Shown here: piece by piece, positions 7,461-24,260 of the stretch
Layout: the number at the start of each line of letters is the position of its first letter
Numbering within the stretch: the stretch's first letter is position 1
DNA from: Janthinobacterium sp.
Lineage (GTDB): Bacteria > Pseudomonadota > Gammaproteobacteria > Burkholderiales > Burkholderiaceae_D
Assembly (NCBI GenBank): GCA_025356595.1
Contig: JANXSQ010000269.1
Span: forward strand, 1 to 47,747
Length of the DNA: 47,747 bases
Direction: 5' to 3'
Position numbers and translations under genes: made by a program
Notes under the pieces: model-generated
Seen by the model: only the letters and a program-made list of their open reading frames with translations
What the model was told of the DNA's origin: nothing
The model's database searches: none

Positions 7461-7732
7461 CATAAACACCTCGCCGTTTCGCACGCGAACCGGAACATGC
7501 GTCTTGCCGCCCGGATTCAAAGGATGGGGCGGACTTTCGGGCGAGCCGTAATGTTGTGTTTTTTCAAGAATTTCCGTCATTGAAAATACATGTGGCACAT
7601 GGTTTTTAATGAATTTCCATCATTTCCTTTTACTGTGCTTAAACACGATCAGCGAACGCGGGCGTTATGCACGCCTGGCGCAAGGCGTGCGCCTGCGCCG
7701 TCCGGGCACGCCTCAATACAAGAAAGAAGAAT

Positions 7733-9502
7733 ATGCAGGATATTTCCCTCCCGGCAATTGCCTCCGCCTCCGGCAAAGGACGCGGCCAAAGGCTGGCGCG
7801 CGCCGCCCTGTTCGCGCTGTTGACCCTGTCCGCGCCGGCCATCTGGGCCCAGTCGCCGGCCGACATCGCCGCCGGCGCGCGCAACGCCGAGCGTATCCAG
7901 CGCGAGCAGGAGGAGCGCCAGCGCCAGCAGATCCAGCTGGAGCTGGAGGGCCGGCGGGCGCCGAGCCGCATCGAGGTTCAGCCGAGCCCGCCGCCCGCCG
8001 CCGGCCAGGGCGGCGCCTGCGTGCAGGTGCGCGCCATCAACATCCACGGCGCGCCCGGCCTGTCCGAGGCGGCGCGCCGGCGCATCGTCGGCCCCTATCT
8101 TGATCGCTGCCTGAGTCTGGTCGAGATACAGAAGCTGCTGGCCGATATCGTTGCCGATTATATCGGACGCGGCCTGATCGCGGCGCGCGCCTACGTCCAG
8201 CAGCAGGATGCCTCCAAGGGCAGCCTGGATATCCTGGTGGTCGAGGGGACGCTGGAGAAGATCTCGATCTCCGATGGCGGGAAACACAGCATTTCGCTCG
8301 GCAACGTCATGCCCGGCCTGCTGGGCCGGCCCCTGAATCTGCGCGATCTCGAGCAAGGCCTGGAGCAAATCAACCGCCTGGCCTCGAACAACGCGACGCT
8401 GGAAATCCAGCCCGGCGACGCCGCCGGCGGCAGCGCCGTCATGATCCACAACGCGCCCGGCGATCGCCTGCGCCTGAACCTCTCCGCCGACAACCAGGGC
8501 GGCGTATCGACCGGGCGCGATCAGGCTTCGGCCGGCGTCAGCATGGACAATCCACTGGGATGGAACGATTTCCTCAGTGTGACGCACCGCCGTTCCGTGC
8601 CGGTCGATTATGCGCGCCGCGCATCGACGGCCAACAACGCCGTGTACGTGCTGCCCTACGGCTACAACACCCTGAGCGCCGGCGCCGGCAATTCCACCTA
8701 TGTCAGCACGCTGCTCACGTCCGGCGGCCAGGAGTTGAAATCGAACGGCGACAGCAAGAATCTGTTCCTGAAGGGCGAACGCGTCGTCTATCGGGGGCAG
8801 AACGGCCGCGCCAGCCTGTCCAGCACCTTGACCGTCAAGGAAAGCAACAATTATCTGGCCGAGCAGTTTCTTGCCAGCAGCAGCCGCAAGCTGGCGGTAT
8901 GGGACCTCGACGCCAGCCTGTCCGGCCGCCTCGGCGACGGCGTGGTGGGCGCCGAACTGGGCCTGTCGCGCGGCCTGGACCGCTTCGGCGCGCGCCGCGA
9001 CGCGCCGGACCTGCCGGGCGAGGCGCCCAAGGCGCAGTTCCGCAAGATCCGTTACGGCGCCTCGTATATGTTGCCGTTCAGGGTGGCCAACACCGAGGCG
9101 GTGTTTTCCAGCCAGTTGTCGGGCCAGCGCGGCATCGACGCGCTCTTCGGTTCCGAACAGATTTTGATCGGCGGCATCTACAGCGTGCGCGGTTTCGTCA
9201 ACACCACCTTCACCGGCGACGAGGGTTACACGCTGCGCAACGACCTGTCGACGCGCCTGCCGCTGCCCTGGCCGGGCCGGCAGGCGGCCGTGCTGCGGCC
9301 CTATGTCGGCCTCGATTACGGCCGCGTCAGCGCGCGCGGCCCGAGCGCCGTCGGCGGTTATCTGGCCGGCGCGACGCTGGGCCTGGGCCTGAGCGTGGGC
9401 GCCTTCAACGCCGATCTCTTCAGCGCCTGGCCGATCGCCATGACGGACGGGGCGAAGCTGGAAAGCCCGCGTGTCTATCTGCAAGTGCGCCTGGCGCTGT
9501 AA
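7733..9502 (+). CDS. Two-partner secretion outer-membrane transporter (FhaC/ShlB, TpsB family)
   Basis: A 589-residue TpsB transporter that carries the partner exoprotein across the outer membrane. The start at 7733 follows an AAGAAAGAAG ribosome site and gives a clean signal peptide ending AIWA-Q near residue 39. Next comes a charged Glu/Arg/Gln helix, the expected TpsB N-terminal helix or linker, then two POTRA domains at about 95-250 (VEGTLEKISI marks the second) and a 16-strand barrel to the C-terminal LQVRLAL. The loop-6 motif VRGF is at 485-488 with Asp and Glu following in FTGDEG. The exoprotein gene follows 75 bases downstream in the same direction. The pairing is inferred from adjacency and family. 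Confidence 0.95.
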   Translation: MQDISLPAIASASGKGRGQRLARAALFALLTLSAPAIWAQSPADIAAGARNAERIQREQEERQRQQIQLELEGRRAPSRIEVQPSPPPAAGQGGACVQVRAINIHGAPGLSEAARRRIVGPYLDRCLSLVEIQKLLADIVADYIGRGLIAARAYVQQQDASKGSLDILVVEGTLEKISISDGGKHSISLGNVMPGLLGRPLNLRDLEQGLEQINRLASNNATLEIQPGDAAGGSAVMIHNAPGDRLRLNLSADNQGGVSTGRDQASAGVSMDNPLGWNDFLSVTHRRSVPVDYARRASTANNAVYVLPYGYNTLSAGAGNSTYVSTLLTSGGQELKSNGDSKNLFLKGERVVYRGQNGRASLSSTLTVKESNNYLAEQFLASSSRKLAVWDLDASLSGRLGDGVVGAELGLSRGLDRFGARRDAPDLPGEAPKAQFRKIRYGASYMLPFRVANTEAVFSSQLSGQRGIDALFGSEQILIGGIYSVRGFVNTTFTGDEGYTLRNDLSTRLPLPWPGRQAAVLRPYVGLDYGRVSARGPSAVGGYLAGATLGLGLSVGAFNADLFSAWPIAMTDGAKLESPRVYLQVRLAL

Positions 9503-9577
9503 CAGCGGCCCAAGTATCGAACAAGAACGGCAGTGGACCAAGGCGTCGGCTGCGATTGCCACGGCAACGAGGAAAAT

Positions 9578-12500
9578 ATGAACATCAAGCACACACAACT
9601 CCCGCAAGCGCTGACGCTGCGTCCCATGGCGCTGGCCTTGCTCGGCGCTTCCTTGTTCAGCCTGCCGACGCTGACCGCCGCGCAGGTCGTGGCCAACGGT
9701 GCCAACACCACGGTGTACAAGGCGCCGAACGGCGTGCCGGTGGTCGATATCGCCACCGCGAACGGCGCCGGGGTGTCGCATAACCGCTATACGCAATTCA
9801 ATGTCGACGGCAAGGGCCTGATTCTGAACAACGGCAACTCGGCGCAGATGGCGCGCCAGTCGCAACTCGCCGGTCAGCTCTCGGCGAACTTGAATCTGCT
9901 CGATCCGGCCAAACTCATCATCAATGAGGTGAACGGCGCCAACCGCAGCACGCTGGCCGGCTATATCGAGGTGCTGGGCAGCCGCGCCGAGGTGGTCATC
10001 GCCAATCCCTACGGCATCACCTGCAGCGGCTGCGGCTTCATCAACACGCCGCGCGTGACGCTGAGCACCGGCGTGCCGGGCATCGACCCGCTCACCGGCA
10101 ATCTGAGCGGCTTCCGGGTCACCCAGGGCGATATCCTGATCAACGGCGCCGGCCTGGACGGCAGGAGTGTCGCCTATCTGGACCTGGTGGCCCGCTCGGT
10201 CAAGGTCGACGGGCAAGTGAACGCGCAGGACCTGTCCATCGCCGCGGGCGCCAACAACTGGGACTACGCCAGTCGCGAGGCGAGCGCCAACGCGCCCGCC
10301 GGCGCCGCTTCCGCGCCCGGTTTCGATTCCACCGCGCTGGGCGGCATGTACGCCAACCGCATCCGCATTCTGTCCACCGAGCAAGGCGTGGGCGTGCGCA
10401 TGCTGGGCGACGCCGCCGCCGCGGCGGCCGAACTGACGATCACCGCGGCCGGCGCGATTCTCGTGCAAAGCCGCCTGAGCGCGGAGCGGGGCGCGCTCAA
10501 CGTGAGCAGCAACAATGCTTCCGGCATTGGCGCCGCCGCCTTGACCGTGAGCGGCGCCAATGCCGCGCTGAGCGCGGGCGGCGACCTCACGCTGCTGAGC
10601 AGCGGCGCCGGCAACGGCATCACGCTGAGCGACGCCAGCCTGAACGCCGGCGGGGCGCTGCTGCTGCGTTCGGCCGGCGACCTGTCCGACAGCGCCGCCG
10701 TCGGCACTGCCAAGGCCAGCCGTTTCGCGGCCGGCAAACTGAGCATCGACGTCGCCGGCAAGGCCGTCGTCGGCAATACCAGCTGGGGCGCCGGCGCGGC
10801 GCTCGACGCCACCTTCGGCGCGCTGCAGGTCGCGCCGGCGGGCGCCAGCTTCTACAGTGGCGCGGATGGCGGCGCCGCCGACAAGACGCTGAACATGACA
10901 ACGAGCGAGGGCGACCTGAACCTGGCCGGGGCGTCCCTGCGCGCGCCGGGCGCGATCAAGCTCAGCGCCGGGCAAGCTTCGCTGCAACTGGGCGCGGGCG
11001 GCAAGGTGGAATCGGGCGACGGCATCGCGCTGGACGCCGGGCGCAGGATCGACAACGCCGCCAGCGTGTCGGCGCAGAACGATCTGACGCTGCGCTCCAA
11101 CAACGCCAAGGCAAATCTCGCGCTGCTCAACAGCGGCGTGCTGCAGGCGGGCCGGACGCTGTCCATCGCCGGCTTCCCGGCCGGCGGCGTGGCCGGGCAG
11201 GGGCTCGATCTGAACAACACGGCGGGCGCCAAATTGCTCGCCGGCGCAACGCTGGACATCCAGGCCGACACCGTCGCCAACGCCGGCATCGTGCAGGCGG
11301 CGCGCGACGTGAACATCGCCGCGCGCGGCGCGCTGAGCAACGCCGGCGCCGGCCTGATTCTCAACACGGCCGGCGGCGCGCGTCTGAACCTGCGCGCGGC
11401 CAGCCTGGACAACGCGGGCAAGCTGCAATCGGCGGGCGCGCTGTCGGTCTCCAGCGACGCCGGCCTGAACAACAGCGGCAGCATGCTCACGCAAGCGCGC
11501 GCCCAGGGCGGCGGTGACGGCGCGTTGACGCTGCAGGGCGACACGATCAGCAACAGCGGCGTGCTCGACTCGGCCGCCGGCGCCGACCTGACGGCCGCCA
11601 AGACACTGGTGAACAGCGGCACGGTGCAAAGCGCGGGCGCCTTGACGGCGACGCTCGGCACGGCGCTGAGCAACGCCGAGGGCGCCACATGGCGTTCCGG
11701 CGGCAAGGTGCAAATCGGCAGCGCCAGCGCGGCGTTCGCGCTCGACAACCAAGGCCGCATCGAAGCGGGCGGCGACGTGGTGATCGGCGCCAACGGCCAT
11801 GTCGCCAACCTCAGCAACGGCGCCAAGGCGGTACTGCTGGGAACGACGGACACTTTGACCCTGGGCACCCTGTCGAACAGCGGCATCGTGCAGGCGGCGC
11901 AGGGCGTGGCGATCACGGCCAGCGGCAAGGTCGACAATACCGCCAGCGGCGTCATCCTGACGCAGGGCACGCCCGGCGCGGCCATCGTCATCGCGGCGGC
12001 GGGCGATCTGAACAATGCCGGCGCGCTGCAATCGAGCGGCGCGCTGCGCGCCGGCAGCGCGGCGAACATCGTCAACAGCGGCAGCATCGTGACGCGCGCG
12101 CCGGCGGACGGCGGCAACGACGGCGCGCTGGTCTTGCAAGGCGCGACGCTGAGCAATGCCGGCCTGGTCGCGGCCGGCGGCGACGCCACCCTGAGCGCGG
12201 ACGGCGCGCTGGACAATGGCGGCACGCTGCAAGGCGGGCGCAGCCTGACGGCGAGCGTCGGCACGGCGCTGAGCAACAGCGCAAGGGGCAAGATACTCTC
12301 GGGCGGCAACGTCCAGATCGGCGGCGCCGGCAGCGTCTTCGCCGTGAACAACGCCGGCCGTATCCAGTCCGGCGCCGCGCTGGGCGTCGGCGGCGCCGGG
12401 CATCGGACCCAGTTGCTCAACGCGTCCGGCGCCATTCTGCTCGGCGACAGCGTCACGCTGCTGGCGCAGAATGTCGACAACAGCGGCCTGGTGCAGGCGC

Positions 12501-15500
12501 GCGAAGGCTTGATGCTGGACGCCAGCGGCGGCGCGGTGCGCAACCGCCTGGCCGGCAGCATGCTGACCAAGGGCGCGGCGGGCAAGAACGTCAGCATCAC
12601 CGGCGGCTCGGTGGTCAACGAAGGTAGGCTGCAATCGACCGGCCAGCTGAGCTTGAGCAGCCTGTCCAGCCTCGACAACAGCGGCACGCTGCTGACGCTG
12701 GCCAGCGGCGCGGACGGCGGCAATGACGGCGCTCTGCGCGTCGCGGCCGGCCTGGCTTCCTATGGCGCGTTGAACAATAGCGGCAGGGCCTTGTCGAACG
12801 GCGCGGCGTCCTTCTCCGGCGCCGCCATCGACAACAGCGGCACGCTGCAAAGCGTCGGCGCGCTCGAGGTGCGCACCGCATCGACACTGAGCAACTCGGC
12901 GACGGGCAAAATTAGCGCGGACGGCGCCGTCAGCATCGACTCCGACCATGCGTTTACCCTGCAAAACGCCGGCCTGCTGCAAAGCGGCGCCGCACTCGGC
13001 ATTGGCGACGCCGCCCATCGGGTCACGATCACCAACACCGGCACCCTGATCGGCGCCAGCGTATCGCTGGTCGGCGTGACGCTCAATAACTCCGGCCAGG
13101 ACGCCCGCATCCTGAGCGTGGCCGGCGCGGGCGGCGACGTTGCGCTGGCATTCAGCGGCCAGGTCAGCAACGACGGCGCCATTCATGCGGATCGCGCCCT
13201 GAACATCGACGCCGCGGCCATTGCCAATTCCGCGACCGGAGGACTATCCGCAACGGGCGACCTGACGCTGAGCGCGAATAGCCAGGACATCGTCAACAGC
13301 GGCTGGATATTCAGCCAGCGCAACATGGCGCTCAGGACCTTCGGCCACGAGATCCGCAATACGGCGACCGGCAGTATCGAGGCGGCCACCGCGCCCTATG
13401 GCGCGATCAGCTTCGACACGGGCGGCGGTTCCTTCTACAACGGCAACTACATCAAGAGCGCCGGGGCGATGACGATCAACACCGGCCGTTTCCTCAACCA
13501 GGCCGGCGATCGTTTGCCGGACATACTGGAAGGGGCACTCAAGTCCGTGGGCGACACGCAAGTCGGGGACAGCGGCGATTTCCATTGCAACGTGTTCGGC
13601 CACGACTGTGCGCACAGCCGTCTCTATAGAACCGATTACACCTCGGATCAATACTTATCCTTCGCTCCGACCAACAACAGTCCCGCGCAGTTGCTTTCGA
13701 CCGGCGATATCCGTATCACGTACAGCGGGACGGCGGCAAATGTCATTTCCCTCATTTCCGGCGCTAACGTCACGATCACAGGCTTGCCTGGCGCGTCGTT
13801 CTTCGAGAACAAGGACTTGTCGCTGCTGCGCAAGAACTATAGTCGCCTCGTCTGGGAGCGCACGGATCACAACGAGGTCAGATATCCGGGCAGCGAGGCA
13901 GCCTACGACAGCGTCCAGGGTCACGAAAATGACAACGAGGCGCCGGGTTCATGGGCCTCCGCCAACTCGAATCCGGACTACGGCATCCCCTACGCCCGCG
14001 CAAATGGCTACGCCAAGCTGACCGATATGAAGGCCTTGCCTGGCGCGGTCGGGTACAACGCCGGCATCTATGCGTCCGGGGTGTTCAAGTATGTGGGCGG
14101 ATCCGGCGTGAAGCAGAGCGCCAGTCCGTTTGCCGCAAGCCGTCCGAACGGCGGCGCGGCCCCGACCGGCGCGCTCGATGGCCACGACGTGGCCCAAGCG
14201 AGCGCCGGCGACTCGGCCGCCGCTCTGGCCGCCGCCGCCGGCGCGGCGGGCTCCGGGCGTACGGGTCCGAGCACCTTCGTCGGCAGCGCCGGCGTGGTTT
14301 TCGTCGGTCCGGACTTGCGCCTGCCGAGCAATCCCAACGGGTTGTTCATCCTGGCCAAGAATCCGAACGCCGGCTATCTGATCGAAACCAATCCACTGTT
14401 CGGCGCCGACGGCGCGGGCGTCGGCTCTAACTATCTGGCGCAACGCCTCGGCTTCGATCCCGTCACCGTGGAGCGGCGTCTGGGCGACGCAAACTATGAA
14501 ACCAAGCTGGTGCGCGATCAATTGATCGCGCAAACCAATAATTTCATCCTGAAGGGCTACGCCAACGAGGCCGAGCAGATGAAAGGCTTGATGGACAGCG
14601 CCAGCAGCCAGTATCAGGAACTGGGCCTGGTGTTCGGCACACCGCTGACGGCGCAGCAGGCCGGCAAACTCAGCCAGGATCTGGTGTGGATGGTCGAGCA
14701 AACCGTCAAGGGCCAGAAAGTACTGGTTCCCGTGGTCTATCTGGCCGCGGCGACGCGCGCCTCGGTGCTGAACGGCGCCGTGATCGCGGCCAACGATGTT
14801 TCCATCGGCGGCAAGACGCTGCAAAACGACGGCGGCACCATCAAGGCCGCCAACAAGCTGACGATCGCCACCAGCGGCGACATCAACAATATCAGCGGCA
14901 ACATCAGCGGCGACAGCGTCGCGCTGAGCTCGACCGGCGGCAGCATCGTCAACCGCACCAGCGCCGAATTCCTCGGCACGGACACCTATGGCCGCACGGC
15001 CATCGGCGCCACCGCCACCATCAGCGCGGGCAAGGATCTGAGCTTGAGCGCGGCCAAGGATGTGAGCGTGATCGGCGCCGCCATCAAGTCCGGCGGCGCG
15101 ACCAGCATCGACGCCGGCCGCGATGTGCTGTTCGACACGATACAGAACAAGAGCGCCGATTCGAGCGCCGGTTCGAGCAGCGGCGCGTTCAGCAGCAGCA
15201 GCTGGTCGCGCAACGAGATCGACACCCGGCAGATCGGCGCCAGCGCCGACAGCGGCGGCAAACTGAGCATCAAAAGCGGCCAGGACGTGACTGTGGCGGG
15301 CAGCAAGATCAAGGCGGGCGGCAATGTCGCAGTGGACGCCGGCGCCAATCTGAATCTGCTCGACCGCCAGGACGTCAGGCAAGTGACGGAGATCAGCCGT
15401 TCCAGCGGCGTCAGCGTCAGCGCCAGCGGCGGCAAAGTCGGTGTCAACAATGTCACCAACGAAGAGACCAAGGCCACCCGCACCGGCACCAGCGTGGCTG

Positions 15501-18118
15501 CCTCCATCACCTCGGGCGGCGACACCAGCCTGAGCGCGGCGCAGACCCTGACCGTGCGCGGTTCGGACGTCGACGCCGGGGGCGAATTGAATCTCAGTGG
15601 CAAGAATGTGCAGGTGCTGGCCGGCCAGAACACCTTCGAGCAGACCATAGACACGAAGAAAACCACGGTCGGCCTGTCGGTCGGCGTCGATATCAGCGCC
15701 GTCACCAATGTCATCGACCTGGCGAAGGGCAACAAGGGCTCGGCCGCCGAGGTCGCGACCATGGCGGCGCAGGCGTACGCCAACCAGGGCGTATCGGTGG
15801 GCGTGAACATGTCCACCACCACCACCCATTCGGAGCAGTCGGATAGCACCGCGCGCGTCTCGACGCTGAAGTCGGGCGCGTCGACCCGCGTCAACGCGCA
15901 GCAGACGGCCACCTTCGAGGGCAGTAAAGTGGACGCCGGCGACAAGATCGAGGTCAAGGCCGCCGACATCAATATGGTGGCGGCGCGCAACACCAGCAGT
16001 TACACCTCGCAGTCCAACACCACCGGCTTGGACATCGCGATGCCGGTCGACGCCAGCGCCCTGGTGCGCAAGGCGGCCGCCGACAACGTCCGCTCCGGCG
16101 GCGGTGGCGGCGTCACCCTGGCGACCGTCAGCAACACCCAGCGCGACACCAGCGCGAACGCCGACAAGGGCACGGTCAGCACCTTCAATGCCGGCGGCAG
16201 CGTGAGCCGCGTCGCCAGCGGCACCATCACCGACCAGGGCACGCAGATTGTGGCCGGGGGCAATTTCGTCCAGAAGGCGACGAGCATCAATATGCTCGCC
16301 TCCACCGACACCACGAGCAGCACGAGCCGGGAAGTGAGCAACACCGGCACGGTGGGCGTGAGCATGGATTTCGAACCGGTCAAGGCGTTCAACGACCTGA
16401 AGTCGGGCAAGATCGCTACGCTCAAGGATCAACTGGGCGGACCGACCATGGGCGTCGACGCCAAGTATGTGCGCGCCGACACGGGGCAAAGCGCCGCCTC
16501 GAGCACGGCGGTGGTCGGCAATGTCGTCGCCGGCGGCGAGATCAGCAGCACGTCGACGGGTGCGACGCGCCTGCAGGGGACCAATCTGGCCAGCGGCGGC
16601 AACACGACGCTCACGGCCGGCAGCCTGACGGCGGACGCGGCGCACAATACCCAGAGCACCGACAACCAGGGCAATACGGTCACCGTCACGGGCCGGGCCG
16701 AGGTCGGCGCGAGCGGGAAACCGAGCGGCAGCCTGAGCGTCGACGTGGGCACCAGCAAGGACAAGAGCAGCGACAGCCAGGCGCAGACCGGCGCCATCCT
16801 CGCCGGCGGCAATCTGACCATCAAGACGACGGGCGACGCCAGGTTCGAAGGCACGACCATCGACGCCAAGGACAACGCCACGCTGCGCATCGGCGGCAAC
16901 CTGGACATGCGCGCGGCCAAGGACAGCAGGGAGGCGTCCGCCTCCTCGCTGGATCTGACGGCGGGCGTCAGCGGCAGCAAGGCCAGCAAGGGCGTCTCGG
17001 CCGGCGTGGCGGTCGCCGAGTCGTCCAGCAAGAGCTCCGACGCCGTGACCGGCAGCATCAGCGCCGGCAACAAGCTCGACATCAGCTCGGGCAAGGCCAT
17101 CACCTTCGAGGGAACCAGCATCGCCGCCGGCAACAACGCGTCGATTGCGGCGCTGGGCGACGTCAAGATGCTGGTCGCCACCAGCGGCAGCTCGTCGAAT
17201 AGTCTGGATGTCGCGGTCGGCGTCGGCGCCAGCCGCTCCAAGACCACGCAGGGCGCCAGCGGCAAGGTCAAGGTCGGCCTCAGCAAGGCCGATTCCATGG
17301 CCGAAACCGGTTCGACGATCGCCGTCGGCGGCGACCTGAAGATCAGCTCGGGCGGCGTCGTCACGATGCAGGGCACGCAGGCCGATGTCGGCGGCGCCGC
17401 CAGCGTCGCCGCGGCCGGCGGCGTGGTGCAGCGCGCGGCGGTGTCGGACAGCAGTTCCTCGAGTACCAACGTCAGCGTGTCCGGGCAAGTGGCCGGCAAG
17501 CGCGGCGGCGACAAGGCGGCCGACGCGCCGGCCGCTTCGGGCGCCGATACGGCGGAGGGCGGCGGCCGCCCGCGCAGCGACGCCGTGACCGAGGCCCCGG
17601 CCCCGGCCGCCAAGCCGGGCATCATGGACCGCATCAAGACGGGCGCCATCAATGCCAAGAACAAGATTGTCGCGCTGAAGGACCGGGCCAAGGAAAAGAA
17701 GAACAGCACCACCTACGTCATCCCGACCGAAGTCGATCCGCGCAAGATCCATAGCAGCGATTCGAGCCACAGCGAGACGGCGGTGGAGATCCGCCAGGGC
17801 GCCAGCGCGAACGTCTTCAAGCTGCCGGTGGTGGCCAATGTGCTGGCCCTGCCGGCGGTGGCGGCCGCGTCGCAGCTCAACGCCGGCTTGTCGGGGCCGC
17901 TCAAGCAGTACGGCACGCAGGCGGCGATACCGGACAGTGTCAAGCGCGCGCTGCTGACGCGGGCCGGCGTGGCGATACCGGCCGGAGCCGACTTGGCGGC
18001 CCTGCTCAAGCAGACGCAGGACGCCGGCAAGGCCGCGGCGAGCGCCGGCCTGGCCGGCGCCAACATCTCGGCGGCGCAGCAAAACACCGTGCTGCAGTCC
18101 ATGGGCATGAGCAACTAG
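9578..18118 (+). CDS. Filamentous haemagglutinin-like TpsA exoprotein (CdiA-like stalk, no recognised toxin end)
   Basis: A 2,846-residue secreted beta-helical protein. The ATG at 9578 follows GAGGAAAAT and gives a normal signal peptide ending near LTAAQ, without the extended ESPR signal of many relatives. The TPS secretion domain has VSHNRYTQFNVDGKGL and NPYGITCSGCGFINTPRV from residue 143. FHA-1-type repeats rich in NNSG and LQSxGAL run to about 1300. A non-repetitive, Tyr/Pro-containing segment follows (about 1300-1720), including NPNGLF, YLIET and QLIAQTNN. FHA-2-type haemagglutinin repeats (AGGDxxLxA) extend to about 2640. The last 200 residues are Ala/Ser-rich with a Lys-rich patch. No VENN pretoxin motif, nuclease-like end or downstream immunity gene is seen. 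A structural adhesin or biofilm role is most likely. Confidence 0.93.
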   Translation: MNIKHTQLPQALTLRPMALALLGASLFSLPTLTAAQVVANGANTTVYKAPNGVPVVDIATANGAGVSHNRYTQFNVDGKGLILNNGNSAQMARQSQLAGQLSANLNLLDPAKLIINEVNGANRSTLAGYIEVLGSRAEVVIANPYGITCSGCGFINTPRVTLSTGVPGIDPLTGNLSGFRVTQGDILINGAGLDGRSVAYLDLVARSVKVDGQVNAQDLSIAAGANNWDYASREASANAPAGAASAPGFDSTALGGMYANRIRILSTEQGVGVRMLGDAAAAAAELTITAAGAILVQSRLSAERGALNVSSNNASGIGAAALTVSGANAALSAGGDLTLLSSGAGNGITLSDASLNAGGALLLRSAGDLSDSAAVGTAKASRFAAGKLSIDVAGKAVVGNTSWGAGAALDATFGALQVAPAGASFYSGADGGAADKTLNMTTSEGDLNLAGASLRAPGAIKLSAGQASLQLGAGGKVESGDGIALDAGRRIDNAASVSAQNDLTLRSNNAKANLALLNSGVLQAGRTLSIAGFPAGGVAGQGLDLNNTAGAKLLAGATLDIQADTVANAGIVQAARDVNIAARGALSNAGAGLILNTAGGARLNLRAASLDNAGKLQSAGALSVSSDAGLNNSGSMLTQARAQGGGDGALTLQGDTISNSGVLDSAAGADLTAAKTLVNSGTVQSAGALTATLGTALSNAEGATWRSGGKVQIGSASAAFALDNQGRIEAGGDVVIGANGHVANLSNGAKAVLLGTTDTLTLGTLSNSGIVQAAQGVAITASGKVDNTASGVILTQGTPGAAIVIAAAGDLNNAGALQSSGALRAGSAANIVNSGSIVTRAPADGGNDGALVLQGATLSNAGLVAAGGDATLSADGALDNGGTLQGGRSLTASVGTALSNSARGKILSGGNVQIGGAGSVFAVNNAGRIQSGAALGVGGAGHRTQLLNASGAILLGDSVTLLAQNVDNSGLVQAREGLMLDASGGAVRNRLAGSMLTKGAAGKNVSITGGSVVNEGRLQSTGQLSLSSLSSLDNSGTLLTLASGADGGNDGALRVAAGLASYGALNNSGRALSNGAASFSGAAIDNSGTLQSVGALEVRTASTLSNSATGKISADGAVSIDSDHAFTLQNAGLLQSGAALGIGDAAHRVTITNTGTLIGASVSLVGVTLNNSGQDARILSVAGAGGDVALAFSGQVSNDGAIHADRALNIDAAAIANSATGGLSATGDLTLSANSQDIVNSGWIFSQRNMALRTFGHEIRNTATGSIEAATAPYGAISFDTGGGSFYNGNYIKSAGAMTINTGRFLNQAGDRLPDILEGALKSVGDTQVGDSGDFHCNVFGHDCAHSRLYRTDYTSDQYLSFAPTNNSPAQLLSTGDIRITYSGTAANVISLISGANVTITGLPGASFFENKDLSLLRKNYSRLVWERTDHNEVRYPGSEAAYDSVQGHENDNEAPGSWASANSNPDYGIPYARANGYAKLTDMKALPGAVGYNAGIYASGVFKYVGGSGVKQSASPFAASRPNGGAAPTGALDGHDVAQASAGDSAAALAAAAGAAGSGRTGPSTFVGSAGVVFVGPDLRLPSNPNGLFILAKNPNAGYLIETNPLFGADGAGVGSNYLAQRLGFDPVTVERRLGDANYETKLVRDQLIAQTNNFILKGYANEAEQMKGLMDSASSQYQELGLVFGTPLTAQQAGKLSQDLVWMVEQTVKGQKVLVPVVYLAAATRASVLNGAVIAANDVSIGGKTLQNDGGTIKAANKLTIATSGDINNISGNISGDSVALSSTGGSIVNRTSAEFLGTDTYGRTAIGATATISAGKDLSLSAAKDVSVIGAAIKSGGATSIDAGRDVLFDTIQNKSADSSAGSSSGAFSSSSWSRNEIDTRQIGASADSGGKLSIKSGQDVTVAGSKIKAGGNVAVDAGANLNLLDRQDVRQVTEISRSSGVSVSASGGKVGVNNVTNEETKATRTGTSVAASITSGGDTSLSAAQTLTVRGSDVDAGGELNLSGKNVQVLAGQNTFEQTIDTKKTTVGLSVGVDISAVTNVIDLAKGNKGSAAEVATMAAQAYANQGVSVGVNMSTTTTHSEQSDSTARVSTLKSGASTRVNAQQTATFEGSKVDAGDKIEVKAADINMVAARNTSSYTSQSNTTGLDIAMPVDASALVRKAAADNVRSGGGGGVTLATVSNTQRDTSANADKGTVSTFNAGGSVSRVASGTITDQGTQIVAGGNFVQKATSINMLASTDTTSSTSREVSNTGTVGVSMDFEPVKAFNDLKSGKIATLKDQLGGPTMGVDAKYVRADTGQSAASSTAVVGNVVAGGEISSTSTGATRLQGTNLASGGNTTLTAGSLTADAAHNTQSTDNQGNTVTVTGRAEVGASGKPSGSLSVDVGTSKDKSSDSQAQTGAILAGGNLTIKTTGDARFEGTTIDAKDNATLRIGGNLDMRAAKDSREASASSLDLTAGVSGSKASKGVSAGVAVAESSSKSSDAVTGSISAGNKLDISSGKAITFEGTSIAAGNNASIAALGDVKMLVATSGSSSNSLDVAVGVGASRSKTTQGASGKVKVGLSKADSMAETGSTIAVGGDLKISSGGVVTMQGTQADVGGAASVAAAGGVVQRAAVSDSSSSSTNVSVSGQVAGKRGGDKAADAPAASGADTAEGGGRPRSDAVTEAPAPAAKPGIMDRIKTGAINAKNKIVALKDRAKEKKNSTTYVIPTEVDPRKIHSSDSSHSETAVEIRQGASANVFKLPVVANVLALPAVAAASQLNAGLSGPLKQYGTQAAIPDSVKRALLTRAGVAIPAGADLAALLKQTQDAGKAAASAGLAGANISAAQQNTVLQSMGMSN
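11516..12727 (+). repeat. Superrepeat of about 201 codons inside the FHA-1 region
   Basis: The anchor GG(G/N)DGAL recurs with its Asp codon at 11516, 12119 and 12725, spacings of 603 and 606 bases (201 and 202 codons). Flanking blocks such as GTALSN, SGGNVQIG, NNAGRIQSG and the LNNSG pairs recur in the same order. It is a higher-order period above the short beta-helix repeats. Confidence 0.7.
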
Positions 18119-18210: not shown

Positions 18211-18239
18211 GGCGGCCTCGCCACTTCCGTATCGCCGTG

Positions 18240-19139
18240 ATGAAAGCTGCTGCGCTCAAAACACTCCTGTCATTCTCTTGCGCGGCGCTCGCCGCGATTC
18301 CGGGCGGCCTGCTCCGGGCGGCCAACGGGCCGGCGCAATTGCCCGAGGCCAGGGCCGCCGTGCCCGGCGCCGCGCCCGCGCCCGCAGGCGACGAGGCGGC
18401 GGCGATACGCGCCCACCACCTGAAGCGCCTCAACGCCAGGTTGACGGTGGCGCCGGCGACGCTGGAGAAAAGCTGCCGCTACGAGTCCGACATCGCCACC
18501 GCGCCGCCCCTGAACCGGGTCGCGCTGACCTTCGACGACGGCCCGACGCCGGACGGCACGGAGCACATCCTCGCGGTGCTGCGCAAATACAATATCTCGG
18601 CCACCTTCTTCATGATCGGCGAGAAGGCGAAGCGCTATCCCGAGCTGGTGGCGAAGGTGCGGGCGGCCGGGCACGGCGTGATCGCCAACCATTCATGGAA
18701 TCACCCGAACTTCCACGACATCCTTCCCGCCGCCCAGGCCGACGAGGTCTTGCGCGACGATGCCCTGTTCACCGACAAGGGTCCGAAGTTGTTCCGCTAT
18801 CCCTACGGAAACTCGACCTGCGAGACGAACGATTTGCTGCGCGAGCACGGCTACAAGATCGCCGGCTGGCATATCGATTCCTGCGACTGGGCCTACGACA
18901 AGAACGGCGCCATCGACGTGCGCGAAGCGATTTCCTGCGGCGTGCCGGCGCAGTACCGCGCCGACTACGTGGGCCATGTCATCGCGGCGGCGCGCGCGCG
19001 CAAGGGCGGCATCATCCTGATGCACGAGATTCATCCGAATACGCTGAGCAGGCTGGATACGATAGTCGACGGCCTGCTGGCCGCCGGCTTTGTTTTCGGC
19101 ACGATCACCGACGTCGATTTCGCTCCCTCGCTGCGCTAA
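18240..19139 (+). CDS. Secreted polysaccharide deacetylase (CE4 / NodB domain)
   Basis: A 299-residue carbohydrate esterase family 4 protein, predicted to remove N- or O-acetyl groups from a surface or wall polysaccharide. The signal peptide spans about residues 1-28. All five CE4 motifs are present: TFDDGPTPDG (catalytic base and metal Asp), HSWNHPNF (metal HxxxH), RYPYGNST, GWHIDSCDWAYD and IILMHEIHP. Four cysteines in the exported domain may form disulfides. A GTG lies directly before the ATG at 18240, and neither has a strong ribosome site, so the start is uncertain by one codon. Chitooligosaccharide, peptidoglycan and exopolysaccharide are all possible substrates. The gene is monocistronic and followed by a 138-bp palindrome. 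Confidence 0.9.
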   Translation: MKAAALKTLLSFSCAALAAIPGGLLRAANGPAQLPEARAAVPGAAPAPAGDEAAAIRAHHLKRLNARLTVAPATLEKSCRYESDIATAPPLNRVALTFDDGPTPDGTEHILAVLRKYNISATFFMIGEKAKRYPELVAKVRAAGHGVIANHSWNHPNFHDILPAAQADEVLRDDALFTDKGPKLFRYPYGNSTCETNDLLREHGYKIAGWHIDSCDWAYDKNGAIDVREAISCGVPAQYRADYVGHVIAAARARKGGIILMHEIHPNTLSRLDTIVDGLLAAGFVFGTITDVDFAPSLR

Positions 19140-19415: not shown

Positions 19416-19736
19416 TCAGGCGTCGCGCAGCTTGAGCAGGTCGGGGCGGGCTTCGACGATCTCGATCACCCGTCCCGGCGCTTCGGCCGCGCCGATGCGG
19501 AAGCGGTTCATGCCCAGCGGCGTCAAGGCGGCGGCGCTGAGGCGCGGCCGGTCGTCCGGACCCGGCGCGCCGCTGAGCACCTGCCCGGCGGTGTCGAAGT
19601 CCAGCGTTTCGCGGCCGCGCCGGCTGGGAGGGAAGGGGTAGCCGTGGGTCGGGCGGTACAGCCGCACGCCTGCCTCGTCCTCTTCGAAGGAGTGCGTCCA
19701 GCTGCCGCGCAGCGCCACCTCGTGCATGTCCATCAT
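19416..19736 (-). CDS. Conserved small protein of unknown function, coupled to the metalloprotease-lectin gene
   Basis: A 106-residue protein with no signal peptide or membrane segment. It has the look of a small beta-barrel or lipocalin-like domain: [48 protein letters not shown], then a C-terminal [16 protein letters not shown] recall similar unnamed proteins with the RGxWxHSxEED...YRP...FPPSRGR pattern, but know no function. Its ATG overlaps the stop of the upstream gene as ATGA, which implies translational coupling and probably a shared task, for example as inhibitor, chaperone or accessory factor. That is inference only. A strong terminator follows. Confidence 0.75.
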
Positions 19737-22135
19737 GTCCCCATTCCCATATTGGCCGGACGCATCTCGCGCTGCATGGGCGGAGCGGCCGGCACCGCGG
19801 CGGCCGCTTCGGCGCCGGGTATTTGCTTGAACGCCGAGATGACGCCGCCCATGTATTCGTAGCCGGTGACCGAGGGACCCCAGGCCGCGCCGTTCCACCA
19901 CTTGTGATACAGCGCGCTGTCGGTGCCGGTGACGAAGACGTCCAGGCGGTTCGGAGCCCAGGCCGCGACCCGCGGCTGCGAGGTGCAGACGCCGCCCATG
20001 TATTCGTAACCGCTGAGCGAGGGTCCCCACGCCGCGCCGTTCCACCACTTATGATACAGGGCGCTGTCGGTGCCGATGACGAACAGGTCGAGGCGGTTCG
20101 CTCCCCAGGACACGGCTTCCGGTGCGCCGACGCAGACCCCGCCCAGGCGTTCAAAGCCGGTCGGCGAGGGCCCCCAGGCATTGCCGTCCCACCATTTGTG
20201 GTAGAGCGCGCCGTCCGTCCCCGTGACGAAGACGTCGAGCCGGTTCGGACCCCAGGCCGTCACGCGCGGCGCCGACATGCAGACCCCGCCCAGGCGCTCA
20301 TAGCCGGTCAGCGATGGTCCCCAGGCGCTGCCGTTCCACCATTTGTGGTAGAGCGCGCGGTCGGTGCCGACGACGAAGACGTCGAGCCGGTCCGGTCCCC
20401 AGGCGGTCACCTCCGGCTGTCCCACGCAGACGCCGCCCATGTATTCGTAGCCGGTCACCGAGGGTCCCCAGGAGGAGCCGTTCCACCATTTGTGGTAGAG
20501 GGCGCGGTCGGTGCCGACGACGAAGGCGTCGAGCCGGTTCGGACCCCACGACACGATGCGCGGATCGTCCTCGCAGACACCGCTCATGTATTCGTAGCCG
20601 GTCACCGAGGGCCCCCAGGAGGAGCCGTTCCACCATTTGTGATACAGGGCGCTGTCGGTGCCGGTGACGAAGACGTCGAGCCGGTTCGGACCCCAGGCCA
20701 CCGCCTGCGGCACGCTGGTGCAGACGCCGCCCATGAACTCGTAGCCGGTGAGCGCCGGTCCCCAGGCGGCGCCGTTCCACCATTTGTGGTAGAGGGCGCG
20801 GTTGCTGCCGAGCACGAAGACGTCGAGCCGGTTGGCGTCCCAGGAAACCACCGGCGAGGAGCTTTCGCGGATCGATGCGGCCGCCGCCGTGCCGATGCTG
20901 GCGCGCGGGCCGTCCAGGCAGGCCTGCATGCGCCCCACCTGGCCGGCGGTGAACATGAACATGGCGCGGTCGTCGACGTAGTCCATATAGTTCATGAACA
21001 TGTCGCCGTTCGGGCCGTTGCTGCATGAAACGTGCGGGAAGCCGGGCGCGCCGAAATTGGCGCCGCCCTGGTTCGGCGTGTCGGCCACGTTGTCGGTGCC
21101 GCTGCAACCGGTGCCGTCGTCGCCCCAGATGTGGTTCAGGTTCAGCCAGTGGCCGATCTCGTGGGTCGCCGTGCGGCCCAGGTTGAAGGGCGCGGCCGCC
21201 GTGCCGCCGGTGCCGAAGGCCGATTGCAGGATGACGACGCCGTCGGTGGCGGCCGGGCCGCCGGGGAACTGGGCGTAGCCGAGCAGGCCGCCGCCCAGCT
21301 GGCAGACCCAGATGTTCAGGTACTTGTCGCGCGGCCAGGCGTCCATGCCGCCGCTGGCGCTGGACTTGACGGCGTCGTCGGCGCCGAAGGATGCCACGCC
21401 GGTCTGGTGGCGCTCGACGCCGGTGCTCGGCGCGTTGTTGGGGGCCACGTCGGCGAGGTAGAACTCGACGCGCGTATCGGCGGTCAGGGGCAGGAAGGGC
21501 GCCGGCGTGCCGCCGACGTCGGGATTGGTGCGGCGGAAGTCGCGGTTGAGCACGTCGATCTGGCTCTTGATCTGCGCGTCGGAGATGTTTTGCGCGGCGG
21601 CGTTCCAGATCACGTGCACGACGACGGGAATGCGCGTCACGCCGCTGCGCCCGCCGGCGAGTTCGCCCAGTTCGTAGCGCTGGGCATGGACTTCGATGTC
21701 GTCGCGGTTGCGGGCATACTCGGGGACCGTGGACAGCAGGCGCCTGTGCACGTCCATGGTGGCGCAGCGGCGGATCTGCGGCGGATTGGCGCCGCCGCCC
21801 GCGCCGCCTGCGCCACCGCCTGCGCCACCGCCGCCGGCACCCGCGCCACCAGCGCCGTTGACCGCGTGCGCCGCGCGCCCGGGCATGTCGCCGTCAAGGG
21901 ACGCGGCTTGCGCGGCCATGCCGTGTGCGTGGTCCATGGCGGCGCTGTCGGCGGATCCCGGCATCGCGAAGTCCGCTTCGCCCGCTTGCGCCATGGCGCG
22001 GTCGTCCGGCATAAGGTGCGTGGTGCCGCCGCCATTGTGCGTCGATGGCTGTGGCGGGTTGGCCGCCGCGGACATCCGCTCGCCGCCATCGCGCTCGTTC
22101 ATGGATGGCATCTCTTTGCTTAGTTTATCTTTCAT
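19733..22135 (-). CDS. M43 (pappalysin-like) zinc metalloprotease fused to a seven-repeat PLL-like lectin propeller
   Basis: An 800-residue protein with three parts. (1) About 115 residues without a signal peptide: polar, His/Met/Asp-rich, ending in a Gly/Ala-rich linker near 90-115. (2) An M43 metalloprotease at about 120-420, with zinc motif [11 protein letters not shown] from residue 325 (the usual Gly after HExxH is Asn) and Met-turn MNYMDY. (3) Seven tandem 49-residue repeats at about 429-766, each with [16 protein letters not shown] and WGPS. This is the pattern of seven-bladed Photorhabdus PLL-type fucose-binding lectins. The ATG at 22135 follows GGAGACGGAA; an in-frame TTG lies further up. 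It probably binds a glycosylated target and cleaves protein. Its export route is not evident. Confidence 0.88.
19841..20851 (-). repeat. Seven tandem 147-bp repeats encoding lectin blades
   Basis: The block coding HKWWNG recurs every 147 bases (for example 19893, 20040 and 20187 on the plus strand) for seven copies, each a 49-residue blade. The copies are highly alike at DNA level, including silent positions, which suggests recent amplification or homogenisation. Confidence 0.85.
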
Positions 22136-22426: not shown

Positions 22427-24052
22427 TTAGTTGGCGATACCGTATTTGCGCTGGGTCGCGGCGTATTGATCTCGCAGCGAAGCAAGCATGGCGTGCGCGG
22501 GATCGAGCTTGTGGATGCGCTGCAGCTGATGCTGCGCCTGCTCGGCCAGCGGCGCTTCCCAACCCAGGGTGTTGAGCTGGCGCAGGATGGCCTCGACGGA
22601 GGCGAACAGCACCGCCAGGTTGCCGGGCGTCTTGCGCAAGGCCTGGCGCAGGGCGACGACGGCCGCTTTCAACTCGCCGTGGCTGGACTGGTCGGCCGCG
22701 TCGCTCATCAGTTCCTGGACTTGCTGGGTGATCTGCACGCCGACGCTCTGCGCCAGGTCATGGCGGCCGGCTTTTTCAAATTCCTCGACCGCCTGCTCCA
22801 TCGTCACGTCGCTGTCCGGGTCGTTCATCAGGGCCAGCATGACGTCCGCGGCGGCCTGGTCGAGCTTGTTGTTCAGGCAGCTGTGCACGAGACCGATCTT
22901 GAGCTGGGTCGACAAACCCTGGCTGGCGCCGACGGCGCCGACGGCCAGGGCGAGCTCCTTGGCGGCGCCCGCCACGTTGCCGCCCAGTTCGTGCAGCAGG
23001 GCGGCCGAGATGGCGCGGCAAGCCTCGACGTTGGGCGTGCCGCGCATCGAGCGCTCCAGGTCGCGCACCACGCCGCTGGCCTGGCCGGCGTCGCCTTTCT
23101 TGACCAGGGTCTTGACCAGGTTGACATGGTCCTCCGGGTCGCGGAATTCGGAATACTTGGCCTTCGCGACGACTTGCTTGAAGGCGCGCTCGGCCACGCC
23201 GATGTCGTCGGTGGCCAGCGCCACCTCGCCCAAGTGGCGCAGGCGGCGCACCATGTGCGGCGACAGCGCCACCGCGTCCTCGAGCGTCTTCTTGGCCGGC
23301 ACCGGCTGGCCCATCGCCTCCTGGGTCTTGGCCAGCAGGTCGTAGGCCGACATCAGGCGCGGGTTCTGCTCGATCAGCTTGACCAGCGCCTCATAGGTTT
23401 CCTCGTAGCGCTGTTGCGCGAACATGGTCTTGGCCAGGCCGAGGTGGGCCCAGTCCAGCGGCCTTGCGGCCAGCACGTCCTGATAGATCTGCTCGGCCGG
23501 CTCCAGCTCGTCCAGGCTCAGGTGCAGTTCCGCGCGCAGGCGCTGGAAGTCGGCGGCCAGGCGCGGGTGGGCCAGTTCGGCGGCGACGCAGGCGCGTATC
23601 GCTTCGCGCACATTGCCCTGGCCGATCAGTTGATAGACCGGCAGGAAGATGGCGCGCCGGTCGATGGCGCGGCCGATGCGTCCGCTCAGCACGTCGACCG
23701 TGAAGGGCTTCAGGATGTAGTCGGTGGGCGTCAGCTCGGCCGCGCTCATCACCTTGCTGTAGACGCCCTCCGAGGTGAGCATGATGAAAATGGTCCACAA
23801 GCCGATCAGCTTGTGGTGGCGCAGGTCTTCCAGCAATTGCTGGCCGTCCTGGCCGTCGGTGCCGCTGCCCAGATCGTATTCGCAGAGGATGATGTCGAAG
23901 GGCTTCTTGCCCAACTGCCGGATGGCGGTGCCGGAACTGACCGCGTAGTCGATCTTCGTGATCGAGGACTGGTTCAGCATATTGTGCAGATTGCCGCGCA
24001 TGCTGGGGTTGGGATCGACGATTAGAACGGATAGGTCGCTGTATTCTTGCAT
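22427..24052 (-). CDS. Receiver-like domain with TPR array (response-regulator-type signalling protein)
   Basis: A 541-residue cytosolic protein. Residues 1-125 have a receiver fold: [34 protein letters not shown] and DYILKPFT (Thr93, Lys115). The second acidic-pocket residue is Pro14, and the position of the phospho-accepting Asp is Glu58, so classical aspartyl phosphorylation is doubtful. Residues about 130-541 are helical TPR-like repeats, for example [23 protein letters not shown] and [23 protein letters not shown]. There is no DNA-binding or enzymatic output domain, so it probably works by protein binding. Start at 24052 sets the normal receiver N-terminus, although the ribosome site is weak. 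It is divergent from purL with no partner kinase nearby. Confidence 0.88.
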
Positions 24053-24260
24053 CGATGGTCTCTCTGGATTCGGGTTGCCCACTCTGTGGCCGACGGCGGC
24101 GGACATTGTTAAACGAGCATACTGCAAAGATGCCAAAAATCGCATCATTTTGGAAGCCCCCGGCCCGTTTTTCCGCAAAGAAGGCCAAAAATGTTGCTTT
24201 GGCCGCAGTCACTACCGTTGGCGTAGCCACTGGGGCCTGCTGGAAGGGGGGCGAAACGGG

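Follow-up and report, generated by a model that had tools for sequence, protein, structure and literature searches.

A small gene accompanies leaderless ulilysin-type metalloproteases across bacterial phyla, including a protease-lectin fusion of Janthinobacterium

The window analyzed here, a stretch of 47,747 nucleotides of Janthinobacterium sp. (contig JANXSQ010000269.1), encodes on its reverse strand a fusion of an M43 zinc protease with a PLL-type lectin propeller (P0001, 19733..22135, 800 amino acids plus stop) and, directly behind it on the same strand, a small protein of 105 amino acids plus stop (P0002, 19416..19736), which was read from the ATG at 19733 and has a further in-frame ATG at 19736. 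The two genes are co-linear and the start of P0002 overlaps the protease stop codon TGA at 19735-19733. Pairing of the small gene with such proteases is conserved across phyla, which is well supported by the genome comparisons below, and the small gene is coupled to proteases that are leaderless, not to the lectin. By analogy with known protease-inhibitor pairs, we slightly favor the view that P0002 may serve as cytoplasmic cognate inhibitor or folding guard for a signal-less zymogen within a two-gene unit. The small gene was not part of the sequence-only reading of this DNA and places the missing signal peptide of the protease in a family-wide context.

The small gene was located behind the protease in all of an initial set of 20 loci, among them that of the window itself. 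Among 40 genomes of the genus, 37 had the M43 domain and 36 also the small gene, in every one of these 36 on the same contig and at most about 140 bases from the protease match; the genome that had the protease domain but not the small gene (G013) is 82% complete. A search of plasmids (7.3 billion bases) returned three matches to the small protein, each adjoining a ulilysin-type protease without lectin. Since a class-wide survey of 321 genomes with a genus-only model (A2) for the small gene gave two positives, counting the window's own genome, a broader alignment was needed, and scanning a diverse alignment (A3) against 84,980 genomes yielded 132 relatives, of which the best 80 loci were analyzed. 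An M43 frame was present in 59 of these best 80 of 132 loci, in 55 of them within 300 bp, as compared to a chance expectation of about 0.0006 linked loci estimated from how densely such proteases occur in plasmids. In the linked loci the M43 gene was mostly upstream of the small gene on the same strand (44 loci; downstream in 4), while 8 loci, all from Streptomyces, were divergent, one was convergent (L046, with a remote M43 match, E 6e-28) and two encoded both parts in one polypeptide, namely the natural fusions of Geodermatophilus (L086) and Rhodococcoides trifolii (L109). According to the record titles, linked loci belong to Pseudomonadota, Actinomycetota, Acidobacteriota, Planctomycetota, Verrucomicrobiota and Bacteroidota, with Chloroflexota represented only via L046. 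Of the 21 among the best 80 loci without M43, 17 are from Hymenobacter; the remaining four include L095, which starts 190 bases from a contig end.

Comparison of leaderless with exported proteases revealed a split: the small gene lies next to 9 of 12 leaderless proteases (L023, L024, L025, L027, L133, L134, L135, L136 and L141, as against L026, L028 and L137 without it) and none of 35 exported ones (L029, L112, L132, L138-L140 and L142-L170), with a Fisher p of 1.6e-7 that ignores kinship. These proteases were sampled from Pseudomonadota (3 of 398 genomes, own included), Actinomycetota (8 of 396) and Bacteroidota (58 of 296, with the 30 best loci read from the 58 positive genomes), and the table also takes in the proteases of the plasmid search as well as G047 and G081 from a search of 100 genomes, while G040, G073 and G090 were left out. 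L113, whose frame reaches the contig end, was set aside and L111, of the fusion type and with the small gene present, was not counted. Leaders were judged by a hydropathy script and by eye, not by SignalP; the script was overridden by eye for L112, L132, L139 and L160 (leaderless to exported) and for L137 (signal-like to leaderless). The whole-genome loci show about 1.5 kb on each side, so that a small gene further off would be missed. A testable rule follows from this comparison, namely that ulilysin-type proteases without a signal peptide tend to have the small protein and exported ones do not.

The 17 Hymenobacter relatives of the small protein all lack a linked M43 gene, and several of them start with lipoprotein-like leaders. 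Among the 17 genomes, 13 encode M43 elsewhere and 4 do not. All seven of the fetched Hymenobacter M43 loci have an M43 frame that begins with a Sec-like leader, and the small gene is absent from them; in four of the seven (L114, L115, L116 and L120) the locus edge truncates a further M43 frame, whose leader could not be assessed and next to which no small gene was detected. This pattern gives a weak hint that the partners share a compartment. Most of the 17 Hymenobacter loci (between L054 and L094) also hold further, weaker small-protein matches nearby.

Clustering of the neighbors of linked loci returned mostly clade-specific groups and antisense frames, and M28 peptidase was singled out: an M28 frame is located near the pair in 12 of 59 linked loci (L100, L080, L076, L064, L078, L040, L102, L051, L104, L039, L066 and L109) and is also present in L026 and L027, and in L109 the M43, small and M28 parts form one polypeptide. 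The M28 frames read look leaderless and have an N-terminal stretch in common. Additionally, a subgroup of linked proteases (L023, L030, L031, L032, L053 and L134) has long tails made mostly of short repeats, several of which end in a similar stretch near APFVLSTPHHSMAW.

P0002 carries no signal peptide and is predicted to form a lipocalin-like barrel, a fold assignment that its structure model moderately supports. Residues 29-42 (19608..19649, reverse strand) form a long strandless loop with conserved R39 and R41, for which we propose a role as bait loop. The scan for relatives was seeded with the pattern GxW[TVL]H[SA]xEED, hence conservation of the pattern residues is partly selected, and R27, R39, R41 and D61 lie outside it. 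Searches with the P0002 sequence in Pfam, NCBIfam and PDB gave no match even at E 10, and no PDB chain of a solved staphostatin or potempin was found at E up to 10. This points to a small-protein family that is unnamed in the libraries searched here.

Domain and structure comparisons identified the protease part of P0001 as an M43 zymogen of the ulilysin/mirolysin type, the type of unicellular pappalysin known from ulilysin of Methanosarcina acetivorans and mirolysin of Tannerella forsythia. The prosegment (residues 118-162, 21650..21784, reverse strand as for all parts of P0001) contains the motif R122-R123-C124 and is followed by the catalytic domain (residues 163-418, 20882..21649), with the boundary 162/163 placed by reference to the activation site of mirolysin. 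Fold comparison matched both to ulilysin-type M43 pappalysins; the structure model is poor at 337-391 and metal-site geometry was not read from it. The catalytic domain harbors the zinc motif of the HExxHxxNxxH type (residues 325-335, 21131..21163) and the Met-turn MNYMDY (residues 381-386, 20978..20995); H325, E326, H329, H335 and M384 are invariant across 21 aligned proteases, R122 and C124 are invariant in 9 relatives and C124 of the prosegment is kept in 21/21 aligned proteases. Relatives of the ulilysin type are described as zymogens held by a cysteine switch, with an Arg-x-Cys motif, and by a calcium switch (PMC6949598), and by its sequence P0001 is likewise a zymogen, with a putative cysteine switch. 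As compared to ulilysin and mirolysin, P0001 has two additions, a disordered leaderless N-terminus of about 117 residues and the C-terminal propeller. The N-terminus (residues 1-117, 21785..22135) is polar, rich in Gly, Ala and Met and predicted to be disordered (pLDDT about 30), and its sequence bears out the earlier view that P0001 has no Sec or Tat leader, whereas mirolysin has a predicted signal peptide and was cloned without it. Of the two disulfides of mirolysin, only one is matched by position in P0001, namely C344-C371 by manual count.

A leaderless protease must be held safe in the cytoplasm of its producer, and since there are precedents in which a small protein encoded next to a protease does so, we propose the cytoplasmic inhibitor or folding guard. 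Staphostatins are lipocalin-like and are thought to act in the cytoplasm (PMC2873492, PMC3462683), and potempins are small proteins encoded beside proteases, with potD located next to the gene of the M43 protease mirolysin (PMC7296668, PMC4404884). P0002 shares with staphostatins and potempins the adjacency of its gene to the protease gene. The KLIKK protease-potempin pairs of T. forsythia are among the closest known systems to the pair in the window; in staphopain-staphostatin and Bfp-Bfi of Bacteroides fragilis the protease gene is likewise described as contiguous with that of a small inhibitor, but those are cysteine proteases made for export, whereas the pair described here contains a leaderless metalloprotease. 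A protease with a cognate lipocalin-like partner is of a known kind, and of more interest here is the combination of a leaderless pappalysin with a small partner across phyla. Literature searches, covering few subscription journals, found no description of the M43-PLL fusion or of the small protein.

In the mechanism we propose, the first gene would give rise to a signal-less zymogen composed of the disordered N-terminus, the cysteine-switch prosegment, the ulilysin-type M43 endopeptidase and the PLL-type propeller, and the second to a signal-less small barrel that would bind the protease domain in the cytoplasm, possibly via the loop as bait, keep the protease inactive and perhaps aid its folding. 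The protease would then be released by lysis or another non-Sec route, and outside the cell it would activate itself once Ca2+ is higher, the cysteine switch is lost and the partner has separated, and would cut before Arg or Lys while the propeller holds it on glycans. Lysis or other non-classical release is a fair guess, because PLL lectins are reported to lack recognized signal peptides and two of them were nonetheless found extracellularly (PMC12203525); the exoprotein table of J. agaricidamnosum, which covers predicted exoproteins only, lists no M43 protein and thus lends release no support (PMC10470514).

A chaperone or metal-loading role for the leaderless zymogen instead of inhibition, which we regard as rather unlikely, would fit the same pairing data, and one staphostatin has likewise been suggested to act as a chaperone (PMC3462683). 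For metal loading, W12, H14, E17, E18 and D19 of P0002 are possible metal ligands, although part of their conservation stems from the pattern used to seed the scan. Moreover, the cysteine-switch prosegment is retained in all aligned proteases and prosegments usually do the folding themselves, and the zymogens of ulilysin and mirolysin were made recombinantly for structures according to their PDB entries, where the presence of a partner was not checked.

A leaderless enzyme with an adjacent leaderless partner is the usual look of an effector-immunity pair, in which the protease would act as a toxin on other cells after delivery into them and the small protein would confer immunity in the cytoplasm, and the genome does have the type VI sheath gene VipB. 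This explanation appears improbable, as domain library searches found no effector marker domain on P0001 and PADLOC returned no match, and a dependence on Ca2+ and disulfides, if P0001 resembles mirolysin in this respect, would suit the outside better than the cytosol. The pair is also present in Actinomycetota, Planctomycetota and others, in which type VI systems are mostly not expected.

Least probable is that the two proteins do not touch and the small gene belongs to the same physiological module, e.g., peptide use, and binds a small ligand: lipocalin-like folds often do so, unlinked small-protein relatives exist and the recurrent M28 frame means that a locus can hold more than protease and partner, but the invariable adjacency in the genus, the two loci in which small protein and protease are naturally fused and the association of the small gene with leaderless but not with exported proteases speak against it.

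Extending the proposed inhibitor or folding guard to the family as a whole is more tentative and, in our estimate, falls a little short of an even chance. It would mean that an unnamed family of small cytoplasmic lipocalin-like proteins, with members in six or more phyla, is dedicated to leaderless pappalysins and represents an independent invention of a lipocalin-fold protease safety catch for cytoplasmic metalloprotease zymogens, that pappalysin, partner and the leaderless-looking M28 peptidase may form a stored proteolytic module freed by lysis or a non-Sec route, and that a glycan-binding propeller was an addition in Janthinobacterium-type members. Should the partner inhibit, it would be a natural protein inhibitor of ulilysin-type enzymes, among which ulilysin, alias LysargiNase, is used in proteomics, and it would offer a way into the question of why a protease of this type is retained without an export signal in so many bacteria.

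With regard to the fusion itself, domain searches, repeat analysis and the predicted structure confirmed that protease and PLL-type propeller form one polypeptide and that the seven repeats close as a seven-blade propeller (residues 427-768, 19832..20857, repeats of 49 amino acids with the last counted as 48), as had been read from the letters, and the make-up of protease and lectin folds is well supported. The C-terminal tail (residues 769-800, 19736..19831) is predicted to be disordered and is missing from 6 of 8 aligned relatives. Lectins of the same propeller type are PLL and PHL of Photorhabdus, BP39L and CV39L; in P0001 the propeller is joined to a protease, and it scored below the cut-off of all three NCBIfam lectin models (NF052348, 79.9 of 200 bits; NF052350, 57.3 of 350; NF052349, 54.4 of 400). 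Ligand residues of PHL, as named in PMC5584973, were matched by manual count on an alignment of the P0001 repeats to PHL. The Trp pair of the fucose site (Trp199 and Trp214) is replaced, one residue by Tyr in 7/7 repeats and the other by Tyr in six and Phe in one, and binding of fucose, the sugar earlier associated with the lectin part, is therefore not supported. At the galactose-type site (Arg186, Glu188 and Trp202), Arg and Trp are kept and Glu is changed to Asp in all seven repeats, with other site residues outside the comparison. Judged from these residues, a sugar ligand of the propeller is plausible.

Some match to the fusion was detected in 44 of 100 related genomes. In the Janthinobacterium-like genus, 38 of 40 genomes had a match and 33 of 40 a single match spanning both domains; most of these matches were reported with one internal stop, and in the 20 loci read the frame was open and that stop was the gene's own end. 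The fusion also occurs in a second genus of the same family (G056/L111) and, with seven repeats, in Massilia sp. BJB1822 (L106), Nitrosomonas sp. Nm166 (L104) and a Polaromonas MAG (L102). It is thus lineage-restricted but not unique, and the impression of an unusual architecture stands only in part: it recurs across one genus and four further lineages, whereas the lectin is attached to the protease in only 4 of the best 80 loci with the small gene, and most protease relatives are without it. G002 and G004, which belong to the window's genus, have lost the lectin or retain a remnant of it, yet the small gene is still present in both. In another genome of the genus (L131, G007:C6:179000-182700), protease and lectin are split between two reading frames, and the small gene still follows them. 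A Nocardia plasmid encodes a PLL-type propeller (lectin model, E 2.6e-39) followed by a papain-like domain (Peptidase_C70, E 3.4e-9; L121, 1486-3027), which suggests that propeller-protease fusions arose more than once. A phage origin of the fusion was rejected, as the gene is general in the genus and one weak partial match was found among 50,697 phage records, as was a role in anti-phage defense, since four proteins gave no PADLOC match.

The window further encodes a two-partner secretion system, consisting of a ShlB/FhaC-type transporter (7667-9502, forward strand) and a haemagglutinin-type protein of 2,861 amino acids with a TPS domain (9533-18118, forward strand). Secretion of P0001 via this neighboring system is not favored, because the TPS domain of the neighbor was not found on P0001 and P0001 is without a leader. 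Of the genes flanking the pair, that for a polysaccharide deacetylase (18237-19139, forward strand) converges on the small gene, and that for a TPR-repeat response regulator (22427-24178, reverse strand) lies upstream of the protease.
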